Virus record (IMG/VR): IMGVR_UViG_3300009158_000053
Location: 1 to 60,461 of that record
Length of the DNA stretch: 60,461 nt
Direction: 5' to 3' (one strand)
DNA from: a virus
Shown: positions 29,982 to 42,080 of the stretch, piece after piece
How the letters are laid out: the number at the start of each line of letters is the position of its first letter
How positions within the stretch are numbered: the stretch's first letter is position 1
The notes under the pieces: model-generated
Database searches by the model: none
What the model was told of the DNA's origin: nothing
The model's input: the letters and a program-made list of their open reading frames with translations, nothing else
Program-made: the position numbers and the translations under genes

Positions 29982-31013
29982 ATGAAATTAGCATCTCTAG
30001 AAATTATCTCAGAAATTCTTCCTATAGAAGGAGCCGATAAAATTGAACTGGCTAGAGTTCTGGGTTGGCAAAGTGTTATCAAGAAAGATGAATATAAAAT
30101 AGGTGATCAAATTATTTTTGTTCCTATTGATACCGTCCTCACTCCTAGAGAATGGAATAAATTTCTTTGGGATAAGAATGATCCTTCTAAACCTATCCGA
30201 GTTAAGACCGCCAAGCTTCGCGGAGCTATTTCTCAAGGTCTCATCTTTCCTAAGACTTTGGTTAGTGCTCAAGAAGTCTGGGATCATATGGATGATTCTT
30301 CTGAAGATGTTTCTCTGGCTAGTATGCTTGGTATTACCAAATATGAAAAACCAATTCCAGTTCAACTAGCCGGACAAGTTAAAGGAGACTTTCCCACTCA
30401 TTTGGTTTCTAAAACGGATGAAGACAATCTTAAATCTAACATAGAAGCATTAGATGAATTGGGAGAAGCTGAATGGGTAGAAGCTACTCTTAAAATAGAT
30501 GGAACCTCTGCAACTTATATTAAAGAATTGGATGGTACTTTTCGAGTTTGTTCTCGTAATCTAGAGCTTAAAGATACTACCGAAAATGTATACTGGAAAA
30601 TGGCTCGAAAATATAATATCCAAGAAAATCTTAAACCTGGATTTTGTATTCAAGGAGAAATTGCTGGACCTGGTATTCAAGGTAATCCAGCTGGTTATCC
30701 AGAGGTTAGTTTATATCTCTTTAACATGTTTGAAGTACCTTCTCGGAAGCCAGTTCTTCCTTTGAATTGGGTCGATGGTCTAGGAGTTGATTCAAATATT
30801 CCAGGAGTTCCAGTTGTTAAATTATTTAAACATTTCAACCTCTCAACTATAGATGAATTGCAAAATTGGGTCAATACTATCAAGTATCCTAATGATAAAC
30901 CAGCAGAAGGCATTGTCTTCCGTGGTTATAATCAAAATAATGAATTGATGTATAGTAAGAAATTACAGAAAATGCTTAGTGTAAAAATTATTAATCAAAA
31001 TTTCAAAGATTAA
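29982..31013 (+). CDS. RNA ligase of the DraRnl (Rnl5) type with N-terminal OB-like domain
   Basis: A 343-residue nucleotidyltransferase. Residues 1-130 form the N-terminal OB-like module typical of the Deinococcus DRB0094 RNA ligase family (LPIEGADKIELARVLGWQSV; LRGAISQGLIFP). The ligase core follows: motif I TLKIDGTS with nucleophile K171, motif III around YLFNMFEV, motif IV EGIVFRG near 306-312, and motif V LSVKIINQNF at the C-terminus. These enzymes use ATP to join 3'-OH and 5'-phosphate RNA ends, often in nicked duplex. It heads an operon with a P-loop kinase 1 nt downstream, pointing to RNA repair near the tRNA array. Confidence 0.88.
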   Translation: MKLASLEIISEILPIEGADKIELARVLGWQSVIKKDEYKIGDQIIFVPIDTVLTPREWNKFLWDKNDPSKPIRVKTAKLRGAISQGLIFPKTLVSAQEVWDHMDDSSEDVSLASMLGITKYEKPIPVQLAGQVKGDFPTHLVSKTDEDNLKSNIEALDELGEAEWVEATLKIDGTSATYIKELDGTFRVCSRNLELKDTTENVYWKMARKYNIQENLKPGFCIQGEIAGPGIQGNPAGYPEVSLYLFNMFEVPSRKPVLPLNWVDGLGVDSNIPGVPVVKLFKHFNLSTIDELQNWVNTIKYPNDKPAEGIVFRGYNQNNELMYSKKLQKMLSVKIINQNFKD

Positions 31014-31014
31014 A

Positions 31015-31419
31015 ATGAAAAATACTCTTTATATCATCCGTGGATTACCTGGTTCTGGAAAATCTACAGAAGCTCAAAGACTCCTCAATACAGACCCAGA
31101 AAATTTTCGTTGGTTTGAAGCAGATATGTTCTTTGTGCATTCTATAACCGGAGAATATAAATTCAATGCATCTCTTCTCAAACACGCTCATGAGTGGTGT
31201 CTGTTTATGACAGAAGTAGCTTTGAAGCAAGAGTTTAATGTTATTGTATCAAATACATTTTCTACCAAGAGAGAATTCAGACCATATGCAGATTTGGCTA
31301 GTAAGCTGAATGTTCCAATAGATATTAGACAGATGAATGGAAATTACGGAAGCATTCATAATGTTCCGGAAAAAACTATTGAAGTGATGAAAAATAGATG
31401 GGCAACTTATCTTTCATAG
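31015..31419 (+). CDS. P-loop kinase, likely polynucleotide 5'-kinase (AAA_33 type)
   Basis: A 134-residue ATPase starting with a Walker A motif IIRGLPGSGKST at residues 7-18. The family with GLPGSGKST and a following F-E-A-D element (RWFEADMFF) includes the kinase domain of T4 Pnk-like proteins and bacterial Pnkp; ASTFST-like VSNTFSTKREF fits the lid region. The usual reaction is phosphate transfer to a 5'-OH, healing an RNA end before ligation. It lacks a phosphatase domain, but a metallophosphoesterase is encoded at 33839. It overlaps no gene and starts 1 nt after the RNA ligase stop. Confidence 0.75.
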   Translation: MKNTLYIIRGLPGSGKSTEAQRLLNTDPENFRWFEADMFFVHSITGEYKFNASLLKHAHEWCLFMTEVALKQEFNVIVSNTFSTKREFRPYADLASKLNVPIDIRQMNGNYGSIHNVPEKTIEVMKNRWATYLS

Positions 31420-32180: not shown

Positions 32181-32489
32181 ATGAAAAGAAAGTATGTAAA
32201 AATTACCAAACTAGCAGTTTGTGATAATCCAGAATTTCCTACCCCCAACTTTGAAAATTACGAAGCGGGTAAATGTAATGGAAATGTATCTATTCCAGTA
32301 GACTACTGGTTAGAAGGGTATCTTATATCTGAACCAGAGGTAGGTAAACCAGTTGTGGTAGACAGAGAAGTCCGTTGTGGAGTAAAAATGGGAGGAATCT
32401 TTACTTCTTCAGTAGTAACAGAAGTTACTGATACCGGTTTCAAGACTCTTAATTCAGTTTATAATTTAGAATATGTTTCAGCCAATTGA
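32181..32489 (+). CDS. Small beta-rich protein, 102 aa
   Basis: It begins MKRKYVKITKLAVCDNPEF; the body has alternating strands (GYLISEPEVGKPVVVDREV) and ends NLEYVSAN. It looks like a small beta-barrel. It overlaps the Rnl1-like ligase gene by 17 nt, so the two are translationally linked. No recognised family. Confidence 0.6.
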   Translation: MKRKYVKITKLAVCDNPEFPTPNFENYEAGKCNGNVSIPVDYWLEGYLISEPEVGKPVVVDREVRCGVKMGGIFTSSVVTEVTDTGFKTLNSVYNLEYVSAN

Positions 32490-33600
32490 TGTAACCAATT
32501 TTAACATCAAAGATTGTATAGTAGCTGGAGATGAATGCATCTTGGTTACCCCTAAAGACATGGGGGTAACTTGGACAGACGAAAACAAAATCTTTCGTTC
32601 TTCTATCTGGCGTAAGTCTGATAGAAAGCTCGTGTCTGCTGGTTTTAAAAAGTTTGTAAATCTAGGAGAACAACCAGAATTTGAACCTATAGACGACCAT
32701 ACGGACCTAGAATTTATCCGCAAACTTGATGGAAGTCTCTTAATTGTGTCTCGACATAATGGTGAGCTTATTGTTCGTACCCGTGGGACTATAGATGCAT
32801 CTCAGTTAGAAAACGGACATGAAATAGAATTGCTGAAAACCAAGTATCCTGATGCCTTTAATAATTTTTGGTTAGACTCTGAAAAGTTTTCACTTTTATT
32901 TGAATGGACTACTCCTACTAATCGCATTGTTCTTCGGGAATCTGAAGAACCTACTTTGTGGCTTATTGGTATTGTAGGACACGACTCTTATTCATTTATG
33001 GGTAAGCATGATCCGTATTATTATCTTCCTCAAGATGCTTTAGATCAGCAAGCAAGATTTTTTGGCGTGTTACGTCCAGAAAGATACACTTTAAATTTAC
33101 AAAATGTAGCCGAGTATCTTAAGGATGAAACCTCTATAGAAGGAGTTGTTATCTATGCCAACAACGGACAAATTTTAAAGAAAGTCAAGACTCCTCGATA
33201 TTTGTACTTGCATCGAGTATTTACAGGAGTCAAGACTGTCGATCATTTGTTTGATCTGTTTGTGGAATATGGCCAACCAGTTAGAGAAGATTTTGAAAAG
33301 AAACTAGCTGACAATTTTGATTGGGAGTTAGTAACTGCTTTGAAACCTCTAATGGATGAGCTATATGATAAGATTAGATTGATTACATATAAGATAATGC
33401 AGATAAATGTATATTTAATTAATCCAGATTTTATATCTTTAGACCGTAAAGGAAAAGCTCAAAAAATATTGGAGTTGTTTCCTGATTATAGTTGGATTGG
33501 TTTTTCCATCCTGGATGGAAAAGAATTAGATCCGCACAAGCTGTGGAAGACTTATATCACCAATTCTTGCAAGAAAAATATTTTGGAGTTCCGGGTTTAG
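32473..33600 (+). CDS. T4 Rnl1-like RNA ligase
   Basis: A 375-residue ligase, almost the same length as T4 RNA ligase 1 (374). Motif I is FIRKLDGSLL with nucleophile K84; IVRTRGT follows as the conserved R-x-K/R-G element; LLFEWTTPTNRIVL matches the Rnl1 F-E-x-x-x-P-x-N-R-I-V-L block; EGVVIYANN and LKKVKTPRYLYLH are motifs IV and V. The C-terminal 130 residues are helical like the Rnl1 specificity domain, which recognises broken tRNA anticodon loops. The likely job is resealing tRNAs cut by host anticodon nucleases. Its 3' end overlaps a convergent gene by 44 nt. Confidence 0.88.
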   Translation: MFQPIDVTNFNIKDCIVAGDECILVTPKDMGVTWTDENKIFRSSIWRKSDRKLVSAGFKKFVNLGEQPEFEPIDDHTDLEFIRKLDGSLLIVSRHNGELIVRTRGTIDASQLENGHEIELLKTKYPDAFNNFWLDSEKFSLLFEWTTPTNRIVLRESEEPTLWLIGIVGHDSYSFMGKHDPYYYLPQDALDQQARFFGVLRPERYTLNLQNVAEYLKDETSIEGVVIYANNGQILKKVKTPRYLYLHRVFTGVKTVDHLFDLFVEYGQPVREDFEKKLADNFDWELVTALKPLMDELYDKIRLITYKIMQINVYLINPDFISLDRKGKAQKILELFPDYSWIGFSILDGKELDPHKLWKTYITNSCKKNILEFRV

Positions 33601-33838: not shown

Positions 33839-34459
33839 ATGCAAGTAATTTACAAAATGCCAGAAGAAGAATACAATAATTTGTATGTTACTTCAGATAC
33901 CCACTTCGGGCATAATAAAGAATTTCTCTATGGAAAGAGAGGTTATCAAAATCCAGAAGAGATGAATCAAGATATGATTCGTATCATTAATGAAACTGTT
34001 GGAGAAAATGGTATTCTTCTACATCTAGGAGACTTTTGTCTTAATACTTCTTTAGAACAGTATCAAAGTATTATGTTCCAGCTGAAGGTTAAAGCTGTTT
34101 GGATGTTGTGGGGTAATCATAACAACCCTATTCAGAAATCCTATGGAGGTTCTGTTCATCAAATAGCTGGTTCTATTCGAGGAACTATGGTGCGTTATTT
34201 GCATCATTATTTTACCTTTAGAAAAGGTAGAAAGACTTTTGTTTGTTTTCATTTTCCCATTCACAGCTGGGATGGTATGTCTGATGGTGGTATGCACCTC
34301 TGCGGACATTCTCACGGCACTCTGCCTATCTCTCGACCAGAAAACAAGACTCATAAGATCCTAGATTGCGGTTGGGATGTCCATGGCAAGCCTCTAAGTT
34401 TTGCGGAAGTAGAAGCCATCATGGACACTAAAGATGTTAACAACCTACACCATCCATAA
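33839..34459 (+). CDS. Calcineurin-like metallophosphoesterase
   Basis: A 206-residue protein with the five metallophosphoesterase blocks in order: TSDTHFGH (D20, H22), HLGDF near 63, WGNHN near 92, the FHFPIHSW histidine region, and LCGHSHG near 155. These bind two metal ions and cleave phosphomonoesters or diesters. In bacterial Pnkp such a domain removes 2',3'-cyclic or 3'-phosphates from RNA ends; with the kinase and ligases just upstream, that is a reasonable role here. A nucleotide phosphodiesterase or a generic phosphatase is equally possible by sequence. Confidence 0.82.
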   Translation: MQVIYKMPEEEYNNLYVTSDTHFGHNKEFLYGKRGYQNPEEMNQDMIRIINETVGENGILLHLGDFCLNTSLEQYQSIMFQLKVKAVWMLWGNHNNPIQKSYGGSVHQIAGSIRGTMVRYLHHYFTFRKGRKTFVCFHFPIHSWDGMSDGGMHLCGHSHGTLPISRPENKTHKILDCGWDVHGKPLSFAEVEAIMDTKDVNNLHHP

Positions 34460-35718: not shown

Positions 35719-35985
35719 ATGAAGAACATCAATCCAAACCATCACGACATGCACACCCTCAGCCATCCTTTGAAGCACTCCTTCATCGATGCAGCTCAAT
35801 CCGTAGTTTCTTGGAGAGAACCTCTAGAGGACCTTTTGGCGGAATATATCTGCGAAGCCGAACACCAGGACGGTGTTGGTTATTGGGACCAGTTTGAATG
35901 TGTCCTGGATGCCGTAGAAGACTTTAAACGGTTTGTAGAATTTTGCAATGAATCAGAAGATAGTAATTCTGTATTTGAATTGTAA
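35719..35985 (+). CDS. Small acidic 88-residue protein
   Basis: It begins MKNINPNHHDMHTLSHPLKH and becomes acidic (LLAEYICEAEHQDG). The start at 35719 is chosen because the promoter's -10 box lies 7 nt upstream; an earlier in-frame ATG would fall inside that promoter. No family is recognised. Confidence 0.6.
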   Translation: MKNINPNHHDMHTLSHPLKHSFIDAAQSVVSWREPLEDLLAEYICEAEHQDGVGYWDQFECVLDAVEDFKRFVEFCNESEDSNSVFEL

Positions 35986-36000
35986 GTAAATTTTTAAAGC

Positions 36001-36077
36001 GCTCCTATAGACCAACGGGCAGAGTCAACAAACTTAAAATTTGTGTAGTGCTGGTTCGAATCCAGCTAGGAGTACCA
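36001..36077 (+). tRNA. tRNA with UAA anticodon (Leu codon UUA), short variable loop
   Basis: GCTCCTA/TAGGAGT acceptor, stem ACAAA/TTTGT, loop CTTAAAA (anticodon TAA), T-arm GCTGG-TTCGAAT-CCAGC, and encoded CCA. The variable loop is only 5 nt, although bacterial tRNA-Leu normally has a long variable arm. Confidence 0.85.
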
Positions 36078-36111
36078 TCTTTGATCTTTGATATTTTAAT
36101 TTGTAAGTAAT

Positions 36112-36183
36112 GGACCTGTAGCTCAAGGGCAGAGCGTGGTGCTCATAACACCCGGGTTGTTGGTTCGAATCCAACCGGGTCCA
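36112..36183 (+). tRNA. tRNA with CAU anticodon (Met or Ile2)
   Basis: GGACCTG/CGGGTCC acceptor, D-arm GCTC/GAGC, loop CTCATAA, T-arm GTTGG-TTCGAAT-CCAAC. No CCA is encoded. The CAU anticodon may be elongator Met or lysidine-modified Ile; sequence alone does not decide. Confidence 0.85.
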
Positions 36184-36191
36184 CTTTTTTT

Positions 36192-36217
36192 ATAGTCCAT
36201 TGGTATAATGGCAACAC
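36192..36217 (+). other. Fragment resembling the D-arm of the following tRNA-Gln
   Basis: TATAGTCCATTGGTATAATG and the bases after it match the 5' part of the adjacent tRNA (TTG..ATAATGGCA) but have no partner acceptor or anticodon arm. It looks like a truncated tRNA remnant from local duplication. Confidence 0.4.
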
Positions 36218-36288
36218 AGGCCTGTTGCATAATGGCAGTGCACCTCTCTTTGAAAGAGGTAGTGGTGGTTCGACTCCACCCAGGCCTA
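36218..36288 (+). tRNA. tRNA-Gln (UUG)
   Basis: AGGCCTG/CAGGCCT acceptor 7/7, D-arm GCAT/GTGC, stem CCTCT/AGAGG with loop CTTTGAA (anticodon TTG), T-arm GGTGG-TTCGACT-CCACC. No CCA encoded. Confidence 0.9.
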
Positions 36289-36302
36289 TTTTTACTTTTT
36301 AT

Positions 36303-36378
36303 GCTTGGGTAACTTAGTGGCTAAAGTACCTGCTTTACACGCAGATTATCGTGGGTTCGAGTCCCACCCCAAGCACCA
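36303..36378 (+). tRNA. tRNA-Val (UAC)
   Basis: GCTTGGG/CCCAAGC acceptor, stem CCTGC/GCAGA with loop TTTACAC (anticodon TAC), T-arm GTGGG-TTCGAGT-CCCAC, encoded CCA. Confidence 0.9.
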
Positions 36379-36675
36379 CTTTTCTCAGTAACCACGACCC
36401 CTCTGGTATTTAGGTAAGTCTGTAATTGGAACGTAGCAGACCGTAAACCCTGCTGAGATTGCGACACCTGCCTCTTCTGTGGTTATCACGGAGGAGAACG
36501 GCCTGGACATATCCGGGCGATACAAGTGGTGTGACTCTAGGAGAGACTAGACACTTCCCCCAATTGGGGAGTGACACCTGCCGAAGGCTGAAGGCCTCTC
36601 TGAGCTTGATTAAGGATTCCTTAGGGTTTACCTGGTTGAGAAGTGGTGTGACACTGGGAGAGACTAGACAATTCT
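36379..36675 (+). ncRNA. Candidate structured RNA with two tandem domains
   Basis: About 300 nt without a credible plus-strand gene, GC-richer than its surroundings. Two tandem units (36461-36556 and 36571-36673) each open with G(C/T)GACACCTGCC and close with a nearly identical 33-nt segment containing AAGTGGTGTGAC and GAGAGACTAGACA. Inside unit 1 are a 10-bp stem (36472-36481 with 36487-36496) and a 7-bp stem (36501-36507 with 36512-36518). TCTAG-GAGAGA-CTAGA forms a hairpin in unit 1, with CTGG/CTAG in unit 2. Before unit 1, CTCAG/CTGAG and GTCTG/CAGAC also pair. It lies between tRNA-Val and an HNH gene whose 3' end runs into unit 2. Strand is tentative. Confidence 0.5.
36461..36673. repeat. 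Imperfect tandem repeat, two units of about 100 nt
   Basis: Unit 1 (36461-36556) and unit 2 (36571-36673) share their first 12 nt at 11/12 and their last 33 nt with four or fewer differences; the middles differ. The conserved ends suggest a selected structure rather than a fresh duplication. Confidence 0.75.
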
Positions 36676-36980
36676 TCTGCAGCATCTAATTCCACATTAG
36701 GATTAAAAGATTTCCAATCTCTATAATGACCTATGTTAAAATGACAATCAATGTCTCCATATTCACACAGAGTAATAAGATTGGTAGGTTCTAGTTCTAA
36801 GTCCGGATGCAAATGATAAGGTTGTTTGTGATGAACCTGTAATTTTTGTGTACCCCCACAAGCCGCACAGGTAGGTTGTTTTTGAAGATGATGTTTTCTA
36901 ACAGTAGACCAATGAGAAGATCTCACAGCAAGAGGCTTTCCTTCTAAAGATTCTTTGAGAGCTTTAAGATGTCTTATCAT
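36621..36980 (-). CDS. HNH homing-type endonuclease
   Basis: A 119-residue protein. The HNH core reads PTCAACGGTQKLQVHHKQP, followed by PTNLITLCEYGDIDCHFNIGH, with the zinc cysteines (CAAC; C in TLCEY and DCH) and the HH catalytic pair. After NPNVELDAA the tail (EELSSLSQCHTTS) is read from the tandem RNA repeat, so the gene's 3' end seems to have been set by insertion next to that element. Such HNH enzymes nick DNA and spread as free-standing homing endonucleases; this one sits in a tRNA array. Confidence 0.85.
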   Translation of the reverse strand: MIRHLKALKESLEGKPLAVRSSHWSTVRKHHLQKQPTCAACGGTQKLQVHHKQPYHLHPDLELEPTNLITLCEYGDIDCHFNIGHYRDWKSFNPNVELDAAEELSSLSQCHTTSQPGKP

Positions 36981-37012
36981 GGTATTATTACTTATGTCTT
37001 ATAAGTAAGTAA

Positions 37013-37606
37013 ATGACCTTCCAGCAGTATCTTCATCTTAAAGAAGCAACCAGTGCTCCAATTACCTTTGGAGATTTGAAACAAGCTATTAAAAAAGCCG
37101 CAAATCAAAAAATGGCTGGAAAGTTAGTTGGTTCTGCTGTTAAGGGAGCAATCAAAACTACATTTAATGCTGGAGTCGGATCAACAGTCTTTGGTCAAGG
37201 GCAGAACTCAATTGATCCATTGGATGCTATAGAAACTGCTGGTGATATGGCTCAAGCTGTAGCTGCAAGGTATTTAGATCCTACTGGACCGATATTGGCT
37301 ACTTTTAAAAAATTCATGAAAGTAGCTGACAACCTTAGAGGTAATAATGCCTTAAGTAAAATAGATATAGATGATGAAGCAGCAGATATAGTTGCAGATA
37401 ATGTAGAAGATAGTTTTGTTTTCTACATGATAAAAACTTTGAATAACTTTCCGGATAATCAGGTTATTCCACCCGGTTGGAGTATGACTAAAGAATTGAT
37501 TAGATATTTGTCTAACACCTATAAAGGCAGAACCTTGAGTGTTCCAGGAGATCTAAAAACATCATCCTCAGCCCCAGCTACACCACTTCCTCCAAAATTT
37601 TCTTAA
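37013..37606 (+). CDS. 197-residue protein with T4 capsid-targeting-like N-terminus
   Basis: It begins MTFQQYLHLKEATSAP, very like the T4 internal-protein leader (M-K-T-Y-Q-E-F-I-x-E-A) that directs proteins into the prohead and is removed by the prohead protease. The rest is Ala/Gly-rich and helical (AGKLVGSAVKGAIKTTF) with a Pro/Ser-rich end. A protein packaged in the capsid is a reasonable inference. It is divergent from the HNH gene, with ATTACTTATG/TATAAGTAAG sequences between them. Confidence 0.6.
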   Translation: MTFQQYLHLKEATSAPITFGDLKQAIKKAANQKMAGKLVGSAVKGAIKTTFNAGVGSTVFGQGQNSIDPLDAIETAGDMAQAVAARYLDPTGPILATFKKFMKVADNLRGNNALSKIDIDDEAADIVADNVEDSFVFYMIKTLNNFPDNQVIPPGWSMTKELIRYLSNTYKGRTLSVPGDLKTSSSAPATPLPPKFS

Positions 37607-37612
37607 AAAAGG

Positions 37613-37641
37613 TGGTTTCCCATTAACCCCTGTAGTATAAT
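37613..37641 (+). promoter_or_regulatory. Sigma70-like promoter upstream of tRNA segment
   Basis: TGGTTT, 17-nt spacer beginning CCCATT, perfect TATAAT at 37636. The start site would be near 37648, just before tRNA-like sequence. Confidence 0.55.
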
Positions 37642-37653
37642 TATTACATCAAC

Positions 37654-37700
37654 CGCGGGGTCGTCAAGTGGGAAGGCGGTTAGTTCTTTCACATCTTAAT
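37654..37700 (+). other. Degenerate tRNA-Glu-like 5' fragment
   Basis: GCGGGG followed by a D-arm-like TCGTCAAGTGGGAAGGC and a loop CTTTCAC (anticodon TTC), but with a mispaired anticodon stem and no T-arm before the next tRNA begins. It looks like a remnant. Confidence 0.3.
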
Positions 37701-37791
37701 AGCAGGGTATAGAAGTCTGGTCGATCTAGCTTGGCTCATAACCAAGAAGCTACTAAAACGCGCATAAGTGGTTCAAATCCCGCCCCTGCAA
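37701..37791 (+). tRNA. Unusual tRNA with CAU anticodon, enlarged variable region
   Basis: GCAGGG/CCCTGC acceptor with an A-A mismatch at position 1-72 (as initiator tRNAs have a 1-72 mismatch), D-stem TAGA/TCTA, anticodon stem CTTGG/CCAAG with loop CTCATAA, then a 21-nt variable region and a T-arm with only 4 bp and an 8-nt loop. Its 3' end overlaps the end of the convergent endonuclease gene. It may be functional Met/Ile2 or damaged by that insertion. Confidence 0.65.
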
Positions 37792-38591
37792 CTTTCTTTT
37801 ATAAATTGAAATGCCTTTTCTGGAGTATATTTATTATCATTAAAGAATAAAACTTTCCATCCAGCTGATGTTAGAACATCTGTTTTGATTTTATCTCGGT
37901 TTTGTACTTGAGCTAAAGAATGATTCTTTAGTGACAATTGTTTGTAATGCCAAGGTCCATTCCAGAGTATAGCCAATTTGTAATCATCTATAATGATATC
38001 TGCATCCCAACCATCTGAGATAATTTCATTGTGTCTTACAGAATTAAAATAATTTTTACAGAAACTATATAATTTTATTTCATCTCTAGATCTTTTAACA
38101 ATCTTTGAAGCTGATATTTTTCCACCCAGACTACCTCCCCTTTGTTTTAAACGTTTAGAACATTCTACAGAACAACACTTACGAATAGCAGACGTATTAA
38201 ATTCTTTAGAACAACACTTACACATCATAATTTTTGTTTTAGTTATTTTACAATCAACACATTTAGCCTTCTTTGCACTATAGTTTTTTCCTATCTTAAT
38301 GTTTGCTTGACAAATAATGCAACATGCTTCTTTTGTTAGTCCTTTTTGATATACAAAGTTTGTTTTGCGCGTAAGATTAGATTGTAGACGATTTTGATTA
38401 TTGTGTTTAGCTGCACAAGATCTATTACAGAATTTACGTTTGTTTCTTTCATATAAAGCAATGTATGGCATTGAGTTTTTGCAGAACAAACACTCATCAG
38501 GATTTTTGTTATAATCTTCTTGTCTTTGTTTCAATTGTTCTTCATTATATTTTCCAGCCCCGATACTCCATCTCTCAGATCGTGATTTCAT
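37773..38591 (-). CDS. Zinc-finger, Vsr-like (EDxHD-type) homing endonuclease
   Basis: A 272-residue protein. The N-terminal 160 residues carry several Cys4 knuckles (CLFCKN...CNRSC; CCIICQ...CVDC; CKCCSKEF...CCSVEC), likely DNA-binding zinc ribbons. The C-terminal 110 residues contain WDADIIIDDYKLAILWNGPWHY and LTSAGWKVLFFND, the D...N/E-G-x-W-H pattern of Vsr-like/EDxHD nucleases such as I-Bth0305I. Its last codons are read from the complement of the 3' end of the tRNA at 37701, showing insertion at a tRNA gene end. It probably is a mobile free-standing nuclease. Confidence 0.8.
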   Translation of the reverse strand: MKSRSERWSIGAGKYNEEQLKQRQEDYNKNPDECLFCKNSMPYIALYERNKRKFCNRSCAAKHNNQNRLQSNLTRKTNFVYQKGLTKEACCIICQANIKIGKNYSAKKAKCVDCKITKTKIMMCKCCSKEFNTSAIRKCCSVECSKRLKQRGGSLGGKISASKIVKRSRDEIKLYSFCKNYFNSVRHNEIISDGWDADIIIDDYKLAILWNGPWHYKQLSLKNHSLAQVQNRDKIKTDVLTSAGWKVLFFNDNKYTPEKAFQFIKESCRGGI

Positions 38592-38644
38592 AACAATATT
38601 TACCGTTGCGGATCTGGTTTGTGAACTGTTAAAAACAAAAAAAG

Positions 38645-38673
38645 TTGGCTTCCCTCACATTTCCGGTTATAAT
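38645..38673 (+). promoter_or_regulatory. Sigma70-like promoter for the main tRNA array
   Basis: TTGGCT, 17-nt spacer beginning TCCCTC, perfect TATAAT at 38668. It is the first promoter before tRNA-Tyr and the run of tRNAs that follows; the leader between is about 65 nt. Confidence 0.65.
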
Positions 38674-38742
38674 TATTAACAGCGGAGATACAAGTCTCAC
38701 ACCAATTTTGTTCTTTGATAGTTTAATATAAGTTTGTATAAA

Positions 38743-38830
38743 GGGTAGTTATACCGTTAAGGAGACGGTCCGGTTTGTAGAACCGGCGCATGTAAATGCT
38801 CTGTGGGATCGTTACCCACACTACCCACCA
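38743..38830 (+). tRNA. tRNA-Tyr (GUA) with noncanonical T-loop
   Basis: GGGTAGT/ACTACCC acceptor, D-stem ACCG/CGGT, CCGGT-TTGTAGA-ACCGG (anticodon GTA), type II variable arm GCAT/ATGC as expected for Tyr, T-stem GTGGG/CCCAC, encoded CCA. The T-loop is ATCGTTA instead of TTCRANY. Confidence 0.9.
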
Positions 38831-38836
38831 TTTTAA

Positions 38837-38912
38837 GAGCCTGTAGCTCAGTTGGCAGAGCAATTGGCTTTTAACCAGTTGGTCGTTGGTTCGAGTCCAA
38901 CCAGGCTCACCA
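38837..38912 (+). tRNA. tRNA-Lys (UUU)
   Basis: GAGCCTG/CAGGCTC acceptor, D-arm GCTC/GAGC, ATTGG/CCAGT with loop CTTTTAA (anticodon TTT), T-arm GTTGG-TTCGAGT-CCAAC, encoded CCA. Confidence 0.93.
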
Positions 38913-38924
38913 TTTTTATTATTC

Positions 38925-39028
38925 GCCAACATAGCTCAGTGGTAGAGCAGCGGTTTTGAGAGTTGTCACCAACCGAGACAGTTCTTATAAACCGCCGGTC
39001 GTCGGTTCAATCCCGACTGTTGGCTCCA
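38925..39028 (+). tRNA. tRNA-Ile (UAU) interrupted by a 29-nt hairpin in the anticodon loop
   Basis: A canonical cloverleaf (GCCAACA/TGTTGGC, GCTC/GAGC, GCGGT/ACCGC, GTCGG-TTCAATC-CCGAC, encoded CCA) except that the anticodon loop is 36 nt. Bases 38958-38986 form 10 consecutive pairs (three G-U) closed around a 9-nt loop; removing them joins TTT to ATAA, giving the ideal 7-nt loop TTTATAA with anticodon TAT. The insert lies between positions 34 and 35 (or 33 and 34; the flanking T makes them equivalent). Confidence 0.85.
38958..38986 (+). other. Hairpin insert (intron-like) in the tRNA anticodon loop
   Basis: Stem 38958-38967 pairs fully with 38977-38986 (G-U at 58/86, 62/82 and 63/81), loop ACCAACCGA. 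Its removal exactly restores a standard anticodon loop. No group I or II intron core fits in 29 nt. Confidence 0.75.
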
Positions 39029-39035
39029 TTTTATT

Positions 39036-39114
39036 GGGGTTTGGGACTGCTTGGTGTGGTCATCTCATTTGCAATGAGAATATCAGATCGGTTCGATTCC
39101 GATAAGCTCCACCA
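39036..39114 (+). tRNA. tRNA-Ala (UGC)
   Basis: GGGGTTT/AAGCTCC acceptor with two G-U pairs, D-stem GACT/GGTC, TCTCA-TTTGCAA-TGAGA (anticodon TGC), T-arm ATCGG-TTCGATT-CCGAT, encoded CCA. The variable loop is slightly long (7 nt). Confidence 0.88.
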
Positions 39115-39125
39115 TTTTTATAAAT

Positions 39126-39202
39126 GACCTCATCGTCTAATTAGTTAGGATAGTTGACTTTCAATCAACAGATGTTCGGTGCGAATCCGACTGGGGTTGC
39201 CA
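39126..39202 (+). tRNA. tRNA-Glu (UUC)
   Basis: GACCTCA/TGGGGTT acceptor, GTTGA-CTTTCAA-TCAAC (anticodon TTC), T-stem TCGG/CCGA with loop TGCGAAT, discriminator G, encoded CCA. Position 54 is T and 55 is G rather than TT. Confidence 0.87.
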
Positions 39203-39210
39203 ATTTCATA

Positions 39211-39288
39211 TCCCCTTAGTAGCACAAAGGTTTAGTGTTTCCGATTGTGATTCGGACGATCTAGGTTCAAATCCTAGCTAGGGGACCA
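39211..39288 (+). tRNA. tRNA-His (GUG)
   Basis: CCCC(T)TAG/CTAGGGG acceptor with an extra T at 5' side, D-stem GCAC/GTGT, TCCGA-TTGTGAT-TCGGA (anticodon GTG), T-arm CTAGG-TTCAAAT-CCTAG, A then encoded CCA. A T at 39211 could pair with the discriminator A in place of the usual G-1. Confidence 0.85.
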
Positions 39289-39291
39289 AAA

Positions 39292-39365
39292 TGTCTGGTA
39301 GCTCAAAAGTAGAGCTCTCGACTGATAATCGAAAGACGAAGGAGCGTTACCTTCCCAGACAACCA
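39292..39365 (+). tRNA. tRNA-Ile (GAU) with noncanonical T-loop
   Basis: TGTCTGG/CCAGACA acceptor 7/7, GCTC/GAGC, loop CTGATAA (anticodon GAT), T-stem GAAGG/CCTTC, encoded CCA. The T-loop AGCGTTA lacks the usual TTC-purine-A. The anticodon stem has one mismatch at its base. Confidence 0.85.
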
Positions 39366-39368
39366 TTT

Positions 39369-39443
39369 GCTCAGTGACCTAGTTGGCTAAGGGAGGGTCT
39401 GCAAAACCCTTGTTGATCGGTTCGATTCCGATACTGAGCTCCA
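39369..39443 (+). tRNA. tRNA-Cys (GCA)
   Basis: GCTCAGT/ACTGAGC acceptor, AGGGT-CTGCAAA-ACCCT (anticodon GCA), T-arm ATCGG-TTCGATT-CCGAT, discriminator T typical for Cys (U73), encoded CCA. Confidence 0.92.
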
Positions 39444-39449
39444 TTTTAA

Positions 39450-39524
39450 CGTGACGTAGCCTAGAGGACAGGCACTAGTTTTGGGAACTAGTCCACGTGA
39501 GTTCGATCCTCACCGTCACGACCA
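39450..39524 (+). tRNA. tRNA-Pro (UGG)
   Basis: CGTGACG/CGTCACG acceptor, GCCT/AGGC D-arm, CTAGT-TTTGGGA-ACTAG (anticodon TGG), T-arm GTGAG-TTCGATC-CTCAC, encoded CCA. Confidence 0.92.
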
Positions 39525-39591
39525 TTAATTTGCATTTTTTCGTGCAAATGCTTCCTTTTAATATAATATTAATATAATTAAGAATATAAAC

Positions 39592-39978
39592 ATGAATTCT
39601 AAAGACAAAGCGTTATTACAAGAAGCCTATTTAAAGGTCCTATTAAAAGAAAACCCAGAACCACAATCAAGCAACACTTGGTACGTAGCTCAGATAGATG
39701 AATACGGTGGTGATTTGTATACTCTTAAAGGAAGCTCTTTTGAAAATGCCGTAGCAAATCAAATAAAATCAGACAAGTTTGCTTTAGGATTTGATGTAGA
39801 AGGAGAATTTCATAATGATCCAGCTACGGCTGTAGAAGTGATTACCGGAAAAGAATTAGACAATGGTGGTACTTCAGACAGAAGTTGGTTTCAAATATAC
39901 GGCCCTGGCTTCCGGGATGTAAGTGAATTACCACAATCTCCAGAAGATAGAATGAACGAATACGATCTTAATAGATAA
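39592..39978 (+). CDS. Acidic protein with LLQEAY leader motif, in tRNA array
   Basis: A 128-residue protein starting MNSKDKALLQEAYLKVLL, a member of the group of proteins here sharing M-x-(T/S)-K-D...LL(E/Q)EAY. The remainder (TWYVAQIDEYGGDLYTLKG; DGGTSDRSWFQIYGPGF) is acidic and probably a small alpha/beta fold. The shared leader is reminiscent of capsid-targeting sequences of T4 internal proteins. It is preceded by very AT-rich sequence with two TATAAT-like hexamers. Confidence 0.6.
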   Translation: MNSKDKALLQEAYLKVLLKENPEPQSSNTWYVAQIDEYGGDLYTLKGSSFENAVANQIKSDKFALGFDVEGEFHNDPATAVEVITGKELDNGGTSDRSWFQIYGPGFRDVSELPQSPEDRMNEYDLNR

Positions 39979-39984
39979 CAACAT

Positions 39985-40059
39985 TCCTGGATAGCTCAAT
40001 GGTAGAGCGCCTCGCTGTTAACGAGGATGTTGTAGGTTCGAGCCCTACTCCAGGAGCCA
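39985..40059 (+). tRNA. tRNA-Asn (GUU)
   Basis: TCCTGGA/TCCAGGA acceptor, GCTC/GAGC, CCTCG-CTGTTAA-CGAGG (anticodon GTT), T-arm GTAGG-TTCGAGC-CCTAC, discriminator G, encoded CCA. Confidence 0.93.
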
Positions 40060-40068
40060 CTTTCAAAC

Positions 40069-40144
40069 GCGCCGATGGCTCGACAAGCAAGGCAACGGTC
40101 TCCAAAACCGTCTTATGTAGGGGCGGTACCTACTCGGCGTGCCA
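40069..40144 (+). tRNA. tRNA-Trp (CCA), copy 1, noncanonical T-loop
   Basis: GCGCCGA/TCGGCGT acceptor, ACGGT-CTCCAAA-ACCGT (anticodon CCA), T-stem GTAGG/CCTAC, discriminator G, encoded CCA. The T-loop is GGCGGTA. An identical 76-nt copy lies at 40691. Confidence 0.9.
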
Positions 40145-40174
40145 ATCTTAACAAGCATATAACAAGCATATAAC

Positions 40175-40636
40175 ATGAAAACCAAAGACCAACAACTTCT
40201 AGAAGAAGCTTATACAAGAATCATTATTGAACAAATCACAGATGAATGGTTTCAACAAGGTTCTTTTCAGACCTATAAAAAGCCAGCCATAGAACCTTAT
40301 GAGGTAGCTAGTCAAGACGGAACCCTTCAAACACTCGAAGGCCGTCAGCAATACAAAGCTGGGTTCTATATTATGACAGGTCCAAAAGGAGAGAAGTATT
40401 CTATGCCTCCAGAAAAGTTTCAAGAGTTGAAGGATGACAACGGAGACGGTTCTGCCTCTCCTAAGAAGATTGTAAAGCTTGCTAAGCTAGCAGATTCAGA
40501 CGGCAAAGTAAAGACTTCTTGGGGAGCAGAGTTAGAATATAAGACTGGAGAAGATTATATTGTTAAGCATGGTCCAGGTGATTACGGAGTCATTAAAAAA
40601 GATATCTTTAGTCAGACTTATGCTTTAAATAAATAA
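40175..40636 (+). CDS. 153-residue protein with LLEEAY leader motif
   Basis: It begins MKTKDQQLLEEAYTRIII. The body has two similar beta-rich stretches (QTLEGRQQYKAGFYIMTGPKG and the GAELEYKTGEDYIVKHGPGD region), suggesting an internal repeat, perhaps a small SH3-like barrel. The leader matches those at 39592, 42798 and 29526. A truncated copy of its first codons follows at 40643. Packaging into the capsid as an internal protein is a hypothesis from the leader. Confidence 0.6.
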   Translation: MKTKDQQLLEEAYTRIIIEQITDEWFQQGSFQTYKKPAIEPYEVASQDGTLQTLEGRQQYKAGFYIMTGPKGEKYSMPPEKFQELKDDNGDGSASPKKIVKLAKLADSDGKVKTSWGAELEYKTGEDYIVKHGPGDYGVIKKDIFSQTYALNK

Positions 40637-40642
40637 AAAGAC

Positions 40643-40807
40643 ATGAAATCCAAAGACCAAAGGATTGAACAACAAATTGCGGGTATAGACGCGCCGATGG
40701 CTCGACAAGCAAGGCAACGGTCTCCAAAACCGTCTTATGTAGGGGCGGTACCTACTCGGCGTGCCATTTTAAATGTCCCTAGTGTACAGATTTATCTGTG
40801 CATATAA
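40643..40807 (+). pseudogene. Truncated copy of the MKTKDQ gene start, running into tRNA-Trp copy 2
   Basis: ATGAAATCCAAAGACCAAAG repeats the start of the gene at 40175 (MKSKDQ vs MKTKDQ), but after about 14 codons the frame runs straight through the second tRNA-Trp and ends at 40807. It looks like debris of a local duplication of tRNA-Trp plus neighbouring gene start. Confidence 0.6.
40691..40766 (+). tRNA. tRNA-Trp (CCA), copy 2, noncanonical T-loop
   Basis: Identical in all 76 positions to the copy at 40069, including the unusual T-loop GGCGGTA and encoded CCA. Identity implies a recent duplication or gene conversion. Confidence 0.9.
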
Positions 40808-40816
40808 AGGACACCA
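40774..40816 (+). ncRNA. 43-nt tRNA-like minihelix ending in CCA
   Basis: TGTCCCT/AAGGACA forms a 7-position acceptor-like stem with one mismatch, enclosing a 7-bp hairpin GTACAGA-TTTA-TCTGTGC, and is followed by CCA. No D- or T-arm is present. It sits between two tRNA genes with normal spacing. Confidence 0.4.
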
Positions 40817-40817
40817 C

Positions 40818-40891
40818 GCGGGTATAGCATAGTGGTAATGCCTTAGTCTTCCAAACTAATGAGGAGGGTTCGATTCCCTCTACCCGCTCCA
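40818..40891 (+). tRNA. tRNA-Gly (UCC)
   Basis: GCGGGTA/TACCCGC acceptor, GCAT/ATGC D-arm, TTAGT-CTTCCAA-ACTAA (anticodon TCC), T-arm GAGGG-TTCGATT-CCCTC, discriminator T (U73 as in Gly), encoded CCA. Confidence 0.93.
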
Positions 40892-40896
40892 CTTTT

Positions 40897-40989
40897 GGAT
40901 GGGACGTAGATGTCGGTTTTCTACAGCAGTTTGCTAAACTGTCGTGCTCCTTAAAGGCACCGTGGGTTCAATTCCCACTCTATCCGCCA
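40897..40989 (+). tRNA. tRNA-Ser (GCU)
   Basis: GGATGGG/TCTATCC acceptor with G-U pairs, D-stem GTAGA/TCTAC, GCAGT-TTGCTAA-ACTGT (anticodon GCT), long variable arm GTGC/GCAC as expected for Ser, T-arm GTGGG-TTCAATT-CCCAC, discriminator G, encoded CCA. Confidence 0.92.
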
Positions 40990-41194
40990 CTTAGTGCCGG
41001 TCTAGATAGCCGGACAACCTGGAGTAAGTTTTGGTCAGTTTATGTTTGTATCTCCAGCTCTTTCTTAAACACTGGCCTTAGACGTTATTGGATTGCCGTA
41101 TGGTAGTCGATCGTTGAATGATGTGACAAGTCTCGCGAGGAAAACACATCTTTTTCATTGATTTCCCTTCTCTGGAAATCTATAATCTTTACAT
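40990..41194. other. Non-coding stretch in the tRNA array with hairpins and tRNA remnants
   Basis: No ORF and no intact cloverleaf. It contains a CTGGAG/CTCCAG hairpin near 41030-41060 and, around 41107-41135, a copy of GATCGTTgAATGATGTGACAAG resembling the 5' half of the tRNA-like fragment at 41195. A promoter (41158) lies at its end. I see no other feature. Confidence 0.45.
41158..41186 (+). promoter_or_regulatory. Strong sigma70-like promoter before the last tRNA
   Basis: TTGATT, 17-nt spacer beginning TCCCTT, perfect TATAAT at 41181. The predicted start falls at the beginning of a tRNA-like 5' half (41195), upstream of tRNA-Arg and an endonuclease gene. Confidence 0.65.
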
Positions 41195-41240
41195 GTCTCG
41201 ATCGTTTAATGGATAGGACAAGAGTGTTTTATAATATTTT
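41195..41240 (+). other. Truncated tRNA-Arg-like 5' half
   Basis: GTCTCGA, D-arm-like GTTTAATGGATAGGAC, then AAGAGTG; similar to the first 35 nt of many tRNA-Arg genes. No anticodon stem closure or T-arm follows. It is a remnant, or a 5' leader that keeps tRNA structure. Confidence 0.4.
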
Positions 41241-41256
41241 AGGATAAGTAGTTTAT

Positions 41257-41331
41257 GTCGTTGTAGCTCAATGGAAGAGCAATTTCCTTCTAAGAAATTG
41301 GTTGCTGGTTCGAATCCAGTCAGCGACACCA
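41257..41331 (+). tRNA. tRNA-Arg (UCU)
   Basis: GTCGTTG/CAGCGAC acceptor, GCTC/GAGC, ATTTC-CTTCTAA-GAAAT (anticodon TCT), T-arm GCTGG-TTCGAAT-CCAGT, encoded CCA. Confidence 0.92.
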
Positions 41332-41342
41332 TTTCAAAAAAT

Positions 41343-42080
41343 ATGAAAAAAATAATTTGTTCTAAATGTAATCATGAATTTAGAAATCAAAGGTCTAATT
41401 TTAATAGACATTTTGCATCTTGTAACGGATCATACAAGCCATTTCAAAAACTCTCATCTTGTAAATATTGCGATTTAAACTTTGAAACTCTATCTGCATC
41501 TCAACGAGCAAACCATAGCAGATGGTGCTCCTACAATCCAAGATCTATTGAAGACAAAAATCAATTATCAAAACGAATATTAGAAGTTACAAAACAAAAC
41601 AAAGGAAAGCCTCTAACTATAGAACATAAAGAAAAAATTAAAGAAGCCCATAAAAACGGAAAATATTCTCATGTATTACATAACGCATTCCTCGGCAGAA
41701 AACATACAGACAAAGCAAAACAGCTTATAAGAGAAAAAGCTTTATCTTCTTCTCACAGAAGATTAAAAAAAGGAATGATAGAGTATAATGGAATAATGTT
41801 AGATTCTTCTTGGGAATTAGAACTGGCAAAAAGATTAGACTATCTTCAAATTTCTTGGATCAGACCATTACCTATTCAGTGGGTGGATTCAGAAAATCAA
41901 ACTCATAAATATTTTCCAGATTTTTATCTTCCTACATATGATTTATATTTGGATCCAAAAAACCCATACGCTGTAAAAACTCAACAAAACAAAATAGAAA
42001 TTTTAAAATCTCTATACAATAACATTATTTTTTTATATACATTAAAAGAATGTAAGGAATTTGATATTATTAAAAAATAA
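41343..42080 (+). CDS. Homing endonuclease: zinc fingers, NUMOD3 repeats and PD-(D/E)XK nuclease
   Basis: A 245-residue protein starting 11 nt after tRNA-Arg; the longer frame beginning inside the tRNA is rejected. Residues 1-60 contain two Zn-finger-like units (CSKCNHEF...HFASC; CKYCDLNF...HSRWC). Residues about 85-130 hold two NUMOD3-type DNA-binding motifs (GKPLTIEHKEKIKEAHKNG; GRKHTDKAKQLIREK). The C-terminal half is a compact nuclease: SSWELELAKRL, then KYFPDFYLPTYDLYLDPKN, which supplies the PD...DxK catalytic pattern. It is likely a free-standing mobile endonuclease cutting at the tRNA locus of related phages. Confidence 0.85.
   Translation: MKKIICSKCNHEFRNQRSNFNRHFASCNGSYKPFQKLSSCKYCDLNFETLSASQRANHSRWCSYNPRSIEDKNQLSKRILEVTKQNKGKPLTIEHKEKIKEAHKNGKYSHVLHNAFLGRKHTDKAKQLIREKALSSSHRRLKKGMIEYNGIMLDSSWELELAKRLDYLQISWIRPLPIQWVDSENQTHKYFPDFYLPTYDLYLDPKNPYAVKTQQNKIEILKSLYNNIIFLYTLKECKEFDIIKK

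Follow-up and report, generated by a model that had tools for sequence, protein, structure and literature searches.

A 29-nt hairpin insert inside the anticodon of a phage tRNA-Thr(UGU) gene: a possible intron encoded near a T4 Rnl1-like RNA ligase

The question raised by this locus is whether a phage tRNA gene that is interrupted within its anticodon gives rise to a precursor from which the interruption is removed and, if so, by which enzymes. The window analyzed here is a 60,461-base IMG/VR virus record. A tRNA was detected by Rfam (RF00005, 58.6 bits, E 4.2e-10) at 38925-39025, corresponding to the tRNA gene at 38925-39028. The acceptor, D, anticodon and T stems of this gene were found to be intact, CCA is encoded, and the anticodon loop is 36 nt in length. 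These features, and the pairing of 38958-38967 with 38977-38986 (10 bp including three G-U), had been described in an initial annotation made from the sequence alone and were borne out. When ARAGORN was used with default settings, 17 tRNAs were reported in the window and the gene at 38925-39028 was missed; when introns were allowed, a 29-nt intron was found in this tRNA, but the label assigned was tRNA-Ser(tga). Default tRNA callers can thus overlook genes of this type.

The loop alone is indecisive on isotype, since removal of 29 nt yields the anticodon UAU, UGU or UGA depending on the position of the cut. A probe consisting of the 5' half of the tRNA, and thus blind to the insert, identified seven IMG/VR stretches: a near-identical twin that carries the insert and six contigs that do not. 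All six of the latter (L084-L089; three distinct tRNA sequences) encode tRNA-Thr(UGU) with the empty site TTTTG/TAAA (slash, junction), which places the insert between G35 and U36; other registers do not fit. When the insert-free copy was compared by BLAST to 50,697 phage records, 357 records matched and, among the 60 listed, 47 were tRNA-Thr, the remaining 13 had no tRNA annotation and none was of another isotype. By sequence comparison, the interrupted tRNA is tRNA-Thr(UGU), and exact removal of the insert is shown by the alignment to leave the loop UUUGUAA, as in the orthologs. As a fact about the DNA, a 29-nt insert precisely placed in a tRNA-Thr(UGU) gene is near certain. The intron-like reading and the 29-nt length given in the initial annotation hold, but the isotype (tRNA-Ile(UAU)) and the junction (34/35) proposed there do not. 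Although removal at 32/33, 33/34 or 34/35 would leave TTTATAA, orthologs that are uniformly Thr(UGU) and annotated body hits that are all Thr among the 60 listed make tRNA-Ile(UAU) scarcely tenable. The Ser(UGA) register of the ARAGORN label was likewise ruled out by the empty sites and the isotype of the body. The features of the locus are listed in Table 1.

Table 1. Coordinates of the interrupted tRNA gene, its parts and the RNA-repair genes in the window.
Feature	Position	Strand	Basis
Second RNA ligase (PHA02142 OB fold and RNA_ligase domain)	29982..31013	+	PF21189, PF09414
Polynucleotide kinase-like ATPase	31015..31419	+	phrog_2071 1e-29; phrog_505 1.7e-10
T4 Rnl1-like RNA ligase, candidate joining enzyme	32473..33600	+	PF09511 1.4e-14; phrog_562
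Calcineurin-like phosphoesterase	33839..34459	+	phrog_547, PF00149
Interrupted tRNA-Thr(UGU) gene, CCA encoded	38925..39028	+	RF00005 58.6 bits; isotype from intron-less orthologs and BLAST of insert-free copy
tRNA-Thr 5' half, last base G35 (second anticodon base)	38925..38958	+	Alignment with empty sites L084-L089; sequence verified
29-nt hairpin insert, between 35 and 36	38959..38987	+	Absent from 6/6 other contigs; predicted fold; single copy
tRNA-Thr 3' half, first base U36 (third anticodon base)	38988..39028	+	Alignment with empty sites; sequence verified

Apart from the insert, the tRNA body was found to resemble that of its orthologs. Compared to L084, 3 of 75 positions differ, all in stems and with pairing kept, and one pair was judged by eye to have changed on both sides. 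Five differences separate it from L086, four of which correspond by eye to two stem pairs that changed on both sides and are still paired. L087 is the most distant ortholog: it departs from the window tRNA at 11 of 75 positions, and by eye one pair of its anticodon stem is unpaired, such that some loss of pairing also occurs in an insert-free tRNA. When ARAGORN was applied to the window and to the loci of the twin contig, no further tRNA-Thr was called.

In the predicted fold of the precursor, the helix of the insert, with an additional U34-A pair, is stacked on the 7-bp anticodon helix to form a total of 18 bp with one bulged U, and this bulged base is U36 at the 3' junction of the insert. 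The whole 38925-39028 RNA was predicted to fold at -41.1 kcal/mol (z -5.35), with none of 200 dinucleotide-preserving shuffles equally stable, and the same result (0/200) was obtained for the anticodon arm alone. Such shuffles destroy the tRNA or the arm itself, and tests restricted to the insert were weaker. Terminal stems of 9 bp or more arose in 70 of 200000 shuffles of the insert and in 433 of 200000 random 29-mers of the window (about 0.04-0.2%). The energy of the arm was equalled by 61/5000 shuffles and 54/5000 random window 29-mers (about 1%), and that of the insert folded alone by 412/5000 and 318/5000, respectively (6-8%); 4 of 500 loop-shuffled versions of the arm also matched. By itself, the hairpin strength of the insert is only modestly beyond chance.

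Exact-match scans revealed the insert in one other contig, the 131-kb IMGVR_UViG_3300027733_000034, which differs from the window by 5 mismatches over 12,724 bases and 3 over 20,618. Its presence in this twin would argue against an assembly error. The initial annotation had suggested a search for the same insert in the tRNAs of related phages; it is present in this near-identical contig, while the six other contigs with the tRNA lack it, and to this extent the insert has been seen in one phage species only. No second copy within 3 mismatches was found in the window, the twin or two relatives, and a mobile palindrome was set aside on the basis of these four records. The eight closest loci other than the twin (L004-L009, L011 and L012), which were identified through the phosphoesterase at 58-70% identity and read over 6-21 kb each, included six without tRNA-Thr and two with an insert-free tRNA-Thr. 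One relative encodes a terminase with approximately 37% identity to its counterpart in Sinorhizobium phage phiM9 and with matches to annotated gp17 proteins; judging from this resemblance to T4-type gp17, the host of the phage is likely bacterial. A 1181-residue protein of the window had no tblastn match among the phage records.

A second hairpin insert was found in a tRNA-Thr(UGU) of another virus contig. Virus and genome collections were scanned for tRNA-Thr(UGU) genes in which TTG and TAA are separated by 15-44 nt. The pattern demanded GGTTCRANTCC, whereas the interrupted tRNA-Thr of the window itself has GGTTCAATCCC, so that similar genes with this T loop escape the scan. Each of these UGU-specific scans listed 80 of 114 stretches (at least 114 in total for the genome scan), and scripts covered all of the fetched loci. 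Among 196 distinct matches in the fetched loci, three had a paired anticodon stem and acceptor: L270, L417 (Woesearchaeota) and L111, the last with an insert that contains a T-arm-like hairpin. L270 (IMGVR_UViG_3300044797_000047) carries a 26-nt hairpin insert, the removal of which at 35/36 or 36/37 would leave the same UUUGUAA loop as in the window. In the predicted fold, a 7-bp helix with U36 as the single bulged base is formed, and the last two bases of the insert pair with U34 and G35; in any one case, the pairing of these two bases would be expected by chance about one time in four (an estimate). When the L270 copy without its insert was used in BLAST, 20 rows were listed, 13 of them tRNA-Thr, 7 without tRNA annotation and none of another isotype. 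L270 thus resembles the window tRNA in its short hairpin at 35/36, its restored loop, its 7-bp helix and its bulged U36, but differs in sequence and contig, in an internal G/G mismatch in the helix and in that CCA is not encoded; its discovery carries the bias of a UGU-restricted scan. No similarity was detected between the L270 contig and the window by blastn (14 kb) or between nine of its ORFs and the window, L003 and L012 by tblastn. This contig encodes a nucleotidyltransferase that is approximately 40% identical to homologs of Klebsiella, Shigella and Caulobacter phages and has a tail-fibre match; PF09511 gave no match on its 31-kb fragment, in a search in which the controls were equally silent.

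The initial annotation had also proposed that RNA-repair genes upstream could do the joining. These genes are present, with that for the Rnl1-like ligase located 5 kb upstream of the interrupted tRNA-Thr, but they are not specific to the insert. By tblastn, the Rnl1-like ligase was found in all eight related loci counted (L003-L006, L008, L009, L011 and L012, of which L003 is the twin; L007 was left out of this count), compared to three of five records matched by Pfam PF09511. The contigs of L011 and L012 encode this ligase together with an insert-free tRNA-Thr. A tie between the repair genes and the insert was thus ruled out and, since the ligase is equally present in insert-free relatives, it was not acquired for splicing. 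With regard to nucleases, the window, the 131-kb twin and two relatives were searched for RNase III (PF00636) and yielded no match; tRNA intron endonuclease (PF01974) matched none of four virus records and all four archaeal controls; and RtcB (PF01139) matched none of five virus records, where the virus records in each of these searches may be fragments. As these three families were unmatched in the phage records, the nuclease would be that of the host.

RNase III makes staggered cuts that leave 2-nt 3' overhangs with 3'-OH and 5'-phosphate ends, and ends of this type are joined by T4 Rnl1, the natural substrate of which is a break in a tRNA anticodon loop. In the route that we propose, the insert would extend the anticodon stem of the precursor into one long helix with U36 bulged at the 3' junction, and a double-strand-specific host nuclease of the RNase III type would make one cut just 3' of G35 and another just 5' of U36. 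With an offset of two base pairs between them, these cuts would generate 2-nt 3' overhangs on the excised hairpin and on the 5' half, with 3'-OH and 5'-phosphate ends, and the T4 Rnl1-like ligase of the phage would then join G35 to U36. In the predicted fold of the window tRNA-Thr, a single helix carries both junctions, one on each strand; in this fold and in that of L270, the junction positions would fit the RNase III stagger.

We consider that the insert is a hairpin intron that may be cut out and sealed by the phage ligase, with a probability of roughly 45%, because all six empty sites agree, the tRNA body is intact and ARAGORN found no other tRNA-Thr in the window or twin loci, and because of the parallel in L270, the precedent in Lak phages and the Rnl1-like ligase that the window encodes. 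It is somewhat probable that a protein route of some kind removes the insert from the RNA. The exact pairing of RNase III with the phage Rnl1 is a tentative and rather unlikely assignment modeled on the known activities of these enzymes. Equally unlikely, if a serious prospect, is the wider reading that phages have a protein-dependent form of tRNA splicing unlike any described, in which a hairpin intron within the anticodon would be cut out by a double-strand-specific nuclease of the host and the halves sealed by a T4-type RNA ligase of the phage. If true, phage Rnl1 would gain a role in tRNA maturation beside that in repair. T4 Pnkp and Rnl1 repair tRNAs that are broken in the anticodon loop, where the breaks are inflicted by the host; the locus shares with this system a ligase of the same family encoded 5 kb upstream of the interrupted tRNA-Thr, but the substrate here would be a precursor with two cuts. 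The interrupted tRNA-Thr is the simplest version of such a gene: its anticodon holds a single hairpin, the empty site is known, and a suitable ligase is encoded close by. One transcript and two purified enzymes would therefore suffice to test splicing. Its RNA would have either to undergo splicing by a mechanism that is not known in bacteria or to have some other function.

Several alternatives were weighed against a hairpin intron sealed by the phage ligase. The gene may be dead, with a recent short palindromic insertion having destroyed a tRNA of which the body has not yet decayed. Its restriction to the window and one other, near-identical contig in exact-match scans would agree with this, as would the ability of a host tRNA-Thr to substitute, but the body stems are intact with paired changes relative to orthologs, the insert extends the anticodon stem, a second case (L270), on another contig, has its insert at the corresponding position, and the lack of insert copies elsewhere in four records points away from an active element; overall we regard this as unlikely. 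Removal by other proteins would involve a sequence- or structure-specific nuclease that leaves 2',3'-cyclic phosphate and 5'-OH ends, with the phage kinase healing these ends before a ligase, or else a host RtcB, seals them; this reading draws on the same precise-insertion evidence of the empty sites and on the clustering of a kinase, a phosphoesterase and two RNA ligases upstream. This route appears more doubtful still, as no candidate for the splicing nuclease was found (PF01974 in 0/4 and RtcB in 0/5 records, which may be fragments) and the repair cluster is common to insert-free relatives. A comparably low probability is given to the proposal that the RNA stays unspliced and serves, through its long arm, as a decoy or sponge for targets such as a host anticodon nuclease: an exact empty site within a normal tRNA-Thr(UGU) anticodon is not required for such a function, even though the predicted 18-bp arm is stable and a tRNA-like RNA encoded elsewhere (L127:5491-5596, minus strand, IMGVR_UViG_3300002918_000119) has a 36-nt anticodon loop that folds into a 15-bp hairpin with a UUCG cap, and a mature anticodon is not obvious in it.

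An archaeal or eukaryotic-type intron cut by the tRNA splicing endonuclease is similar to the insert in its short size and anticodon-loop location, and every loop insert to pass the tRNA test among the matches listed in the genome scan for UGU tRNAs was archaeal (L394, L417 twice and L437, within 24 rows of a wider local test). The bulge-helix-bulge motif of such introns consists of two 3-nt bulges separated by a 4-bp helix, whereas the predicted fold of the window tRNA has a single 1-nt bulge. By eye, the three archaeal Thr cases allow a reading in which the whole anticodon lies in the 5' part, with the junction at 37/38 and not 35/36. With PF01974, and thus a splicing endonuclease gene, unmatched in four virus records that may be fragments, and a bacterial host likely from the T4-type gp17-like terminase of a relative, this origin is very improbable. 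Group I introns insert into the anticodon loops of bacterial or phage tRNAs, as does the insert, but a group I ribozyme is much longer than 29 nt, and to our knowledge bacterial tRNA introns are generally taken as large self-splicing ribozymes. A known ribozyme intron was rejected, as the tRNA model was the only Rfam model above its gathering score in the search and four weaker matches to other families were far below theirs.

The initial annotation had found no match among known introns; tRNA introns have, however, been published for Lak phages, where they were described as enigmatic and, to the knowledge of those authors, as the first phage report (Devoto et al. 2019, PMC6784885). The parts of that account available to us contain neither a splicing route nor removal at the RNA level, and they include the wording 'intron that may encode a tRNA', a precedent for T-arm-like inserts. 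T-arm-like hairpins were observed in tRNA inserts of L096, L111, L116, L131, L196 and Lak-C1 (L449:2064-2223). A tRNA-Gly(UCC) of Lak-A1 without insert was found to match, by position and sequence, a Lak-C1 copy with approximately 87 extra bases, which ARAGORN labels Ala. As far as that account goes, the window tRNA is like these genes in having a precise insert that relatives lack and in yielding a normal tRNA after removal (6/6 empty sites), but its insert is 29 nt, a simple hairpin and located at 35/36, in contrast to the T-arm-like insert of Lak-C1. Introns of the Lak kind are thus known but unexplained, and what the window presents is a plain hairpin of 29 nt within the anticodon itself, the empty site of which is clear. 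Among the open-licence papers listed in searches, none was recognised as treating the splicing of phage tRNA introns.

A separate family of inserts was identified by a general scan for 22-51 extra bases between the D and T arms (at least 120 stretches, 80 listed). Of 119 distinct matches, 24 passed the tRNA and junction test among the matches listed, insert types other than that of the window included. Many phage tRNAs in this set have inserts of about 40-50 nt composed of a hairpin, then about 3 nt, then ACNGCAA. A search for this motif in the fetched loci gave 38 rows, 28 of which were flagged as fitting. The alignment of 30 rows comprised 25 flagged rows and five unflagged rows added by eye (L166:7370, L167:9815, L169:2317, L191 and L197); eight rows were left out, seven by eye (L115, L116, L129, L159, L160, L183 and L206, with L129 and L159 previously flagged) and L212:282 as a near-duplicate. 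By RNAalifold, two-sided changes were detected at all seven pairs of the hairpin. Cells changed on both sides numbered 59 compared to 17.5 in shuffles, and the covariation score was 0.767 compared to 0.278, each reached in 0/500 shuffles, although rows drawn from one phage, or from phages that are related, do not count as independent; the plain count of pairs with two-sided change (7 compared to 5.9 in shuffles, 134/500) was not significant. In 17 of the 30 rows, removal of the insert from the anticodon arm restores a 5-bp stem, U33 and a purine at 37 (shuffled expectation 0.28), with the cut after position 27, 28 or 29 in 16 of these 17. Four of the five rows added by eye already had such a junction in an earlier test, and without the five the count is 13/25. 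The remaining 13 rows, both rows of the cultured Aeromonas phage Aeh1 included, gave no such solution.

A covariance model of this family (R1) was built from the alignment. Run on 42 of the loci, it yielded further matches at L166:7610-7683 (a candidate, 41.3 bits), L081 and L093; it also gave two matches in Aeh1 that are both training rows, and nothing in Lak-A1 or Lak-C1. The insert of the window was not assigned to this family: with filters off, 14 R1 matches at E<=10 fell within 35900-41500, none of which overlapped 38925-39028 on either strand. A 'GAGACAG' common to this insert and L081 was likewise discounted, as it is only a 7-mer and may be chance. Carriers include L104:10535-10647, L095, L191, L199, L109, L166, L209 and L161 (Aeh1); some genomes have several insert copies, and cultured Aeromonas phages are among the carriers. 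The genome paper of Aeh1, in the part available, lists a Val CAC tRNA and pseudo-tRNAs and describes no tRNA introns (PMC1524935). PF09511 was found in the L081 phage and in none of four other carriers, for which the controls were also silent, and RtcB was found in one of eight carriers but had no match in the L081 phage; the family is thus not consistently accompanied by any joining enzyme. BLAST of the insert-free L191 gave tRNA-Lys as the first row, and the 30 listed rows were mostly Asn, plus Thr and one Met. If the hairpin-intron reading of the window is true, then together with this stem-intron family it would imply that very small structured introns are widespread and varied among phage tRNAs.

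Other tRNA-like genes were observed in the course of this work. L168:10265-10357 and L173:3847-3941 share the same anticodon stem, with hairpin inserts of 22 and 24 nt flanked by AAA and TACCTAA, and the related phages encode a tRNA-Ile(TAT) with an extra-long variable region (L004:11645-11734 and L012:15663-15753). Within the window, positions 40067-40144 and 40689-40766 are an identical 78-nt probable tRNA-Trp (CCA), of which the Rfam gathering score reports the second only; an apparent 5' remnant of a second tRNA-Gln (36194-36220) lies just ahead of the tRNA-Gln at 36218; and a tRNA called Met(CAT) at 37700-37792 has one mismatched pair in its acceptor stem and a variable arm of the long class II type. 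In or beside the tRNA array are a weak match to an HNH endonuclease (37773-38591, minus strand, 3e-05) and an endonuclease or Holliday-resolvase-like gene (41271-42080, plus strand, 2.4e-09). The non-coding stretch at 41008-41168, with no Rfam match at gathering score, is 81-85% identical in L004 and L012 and may be a conserved RNA.
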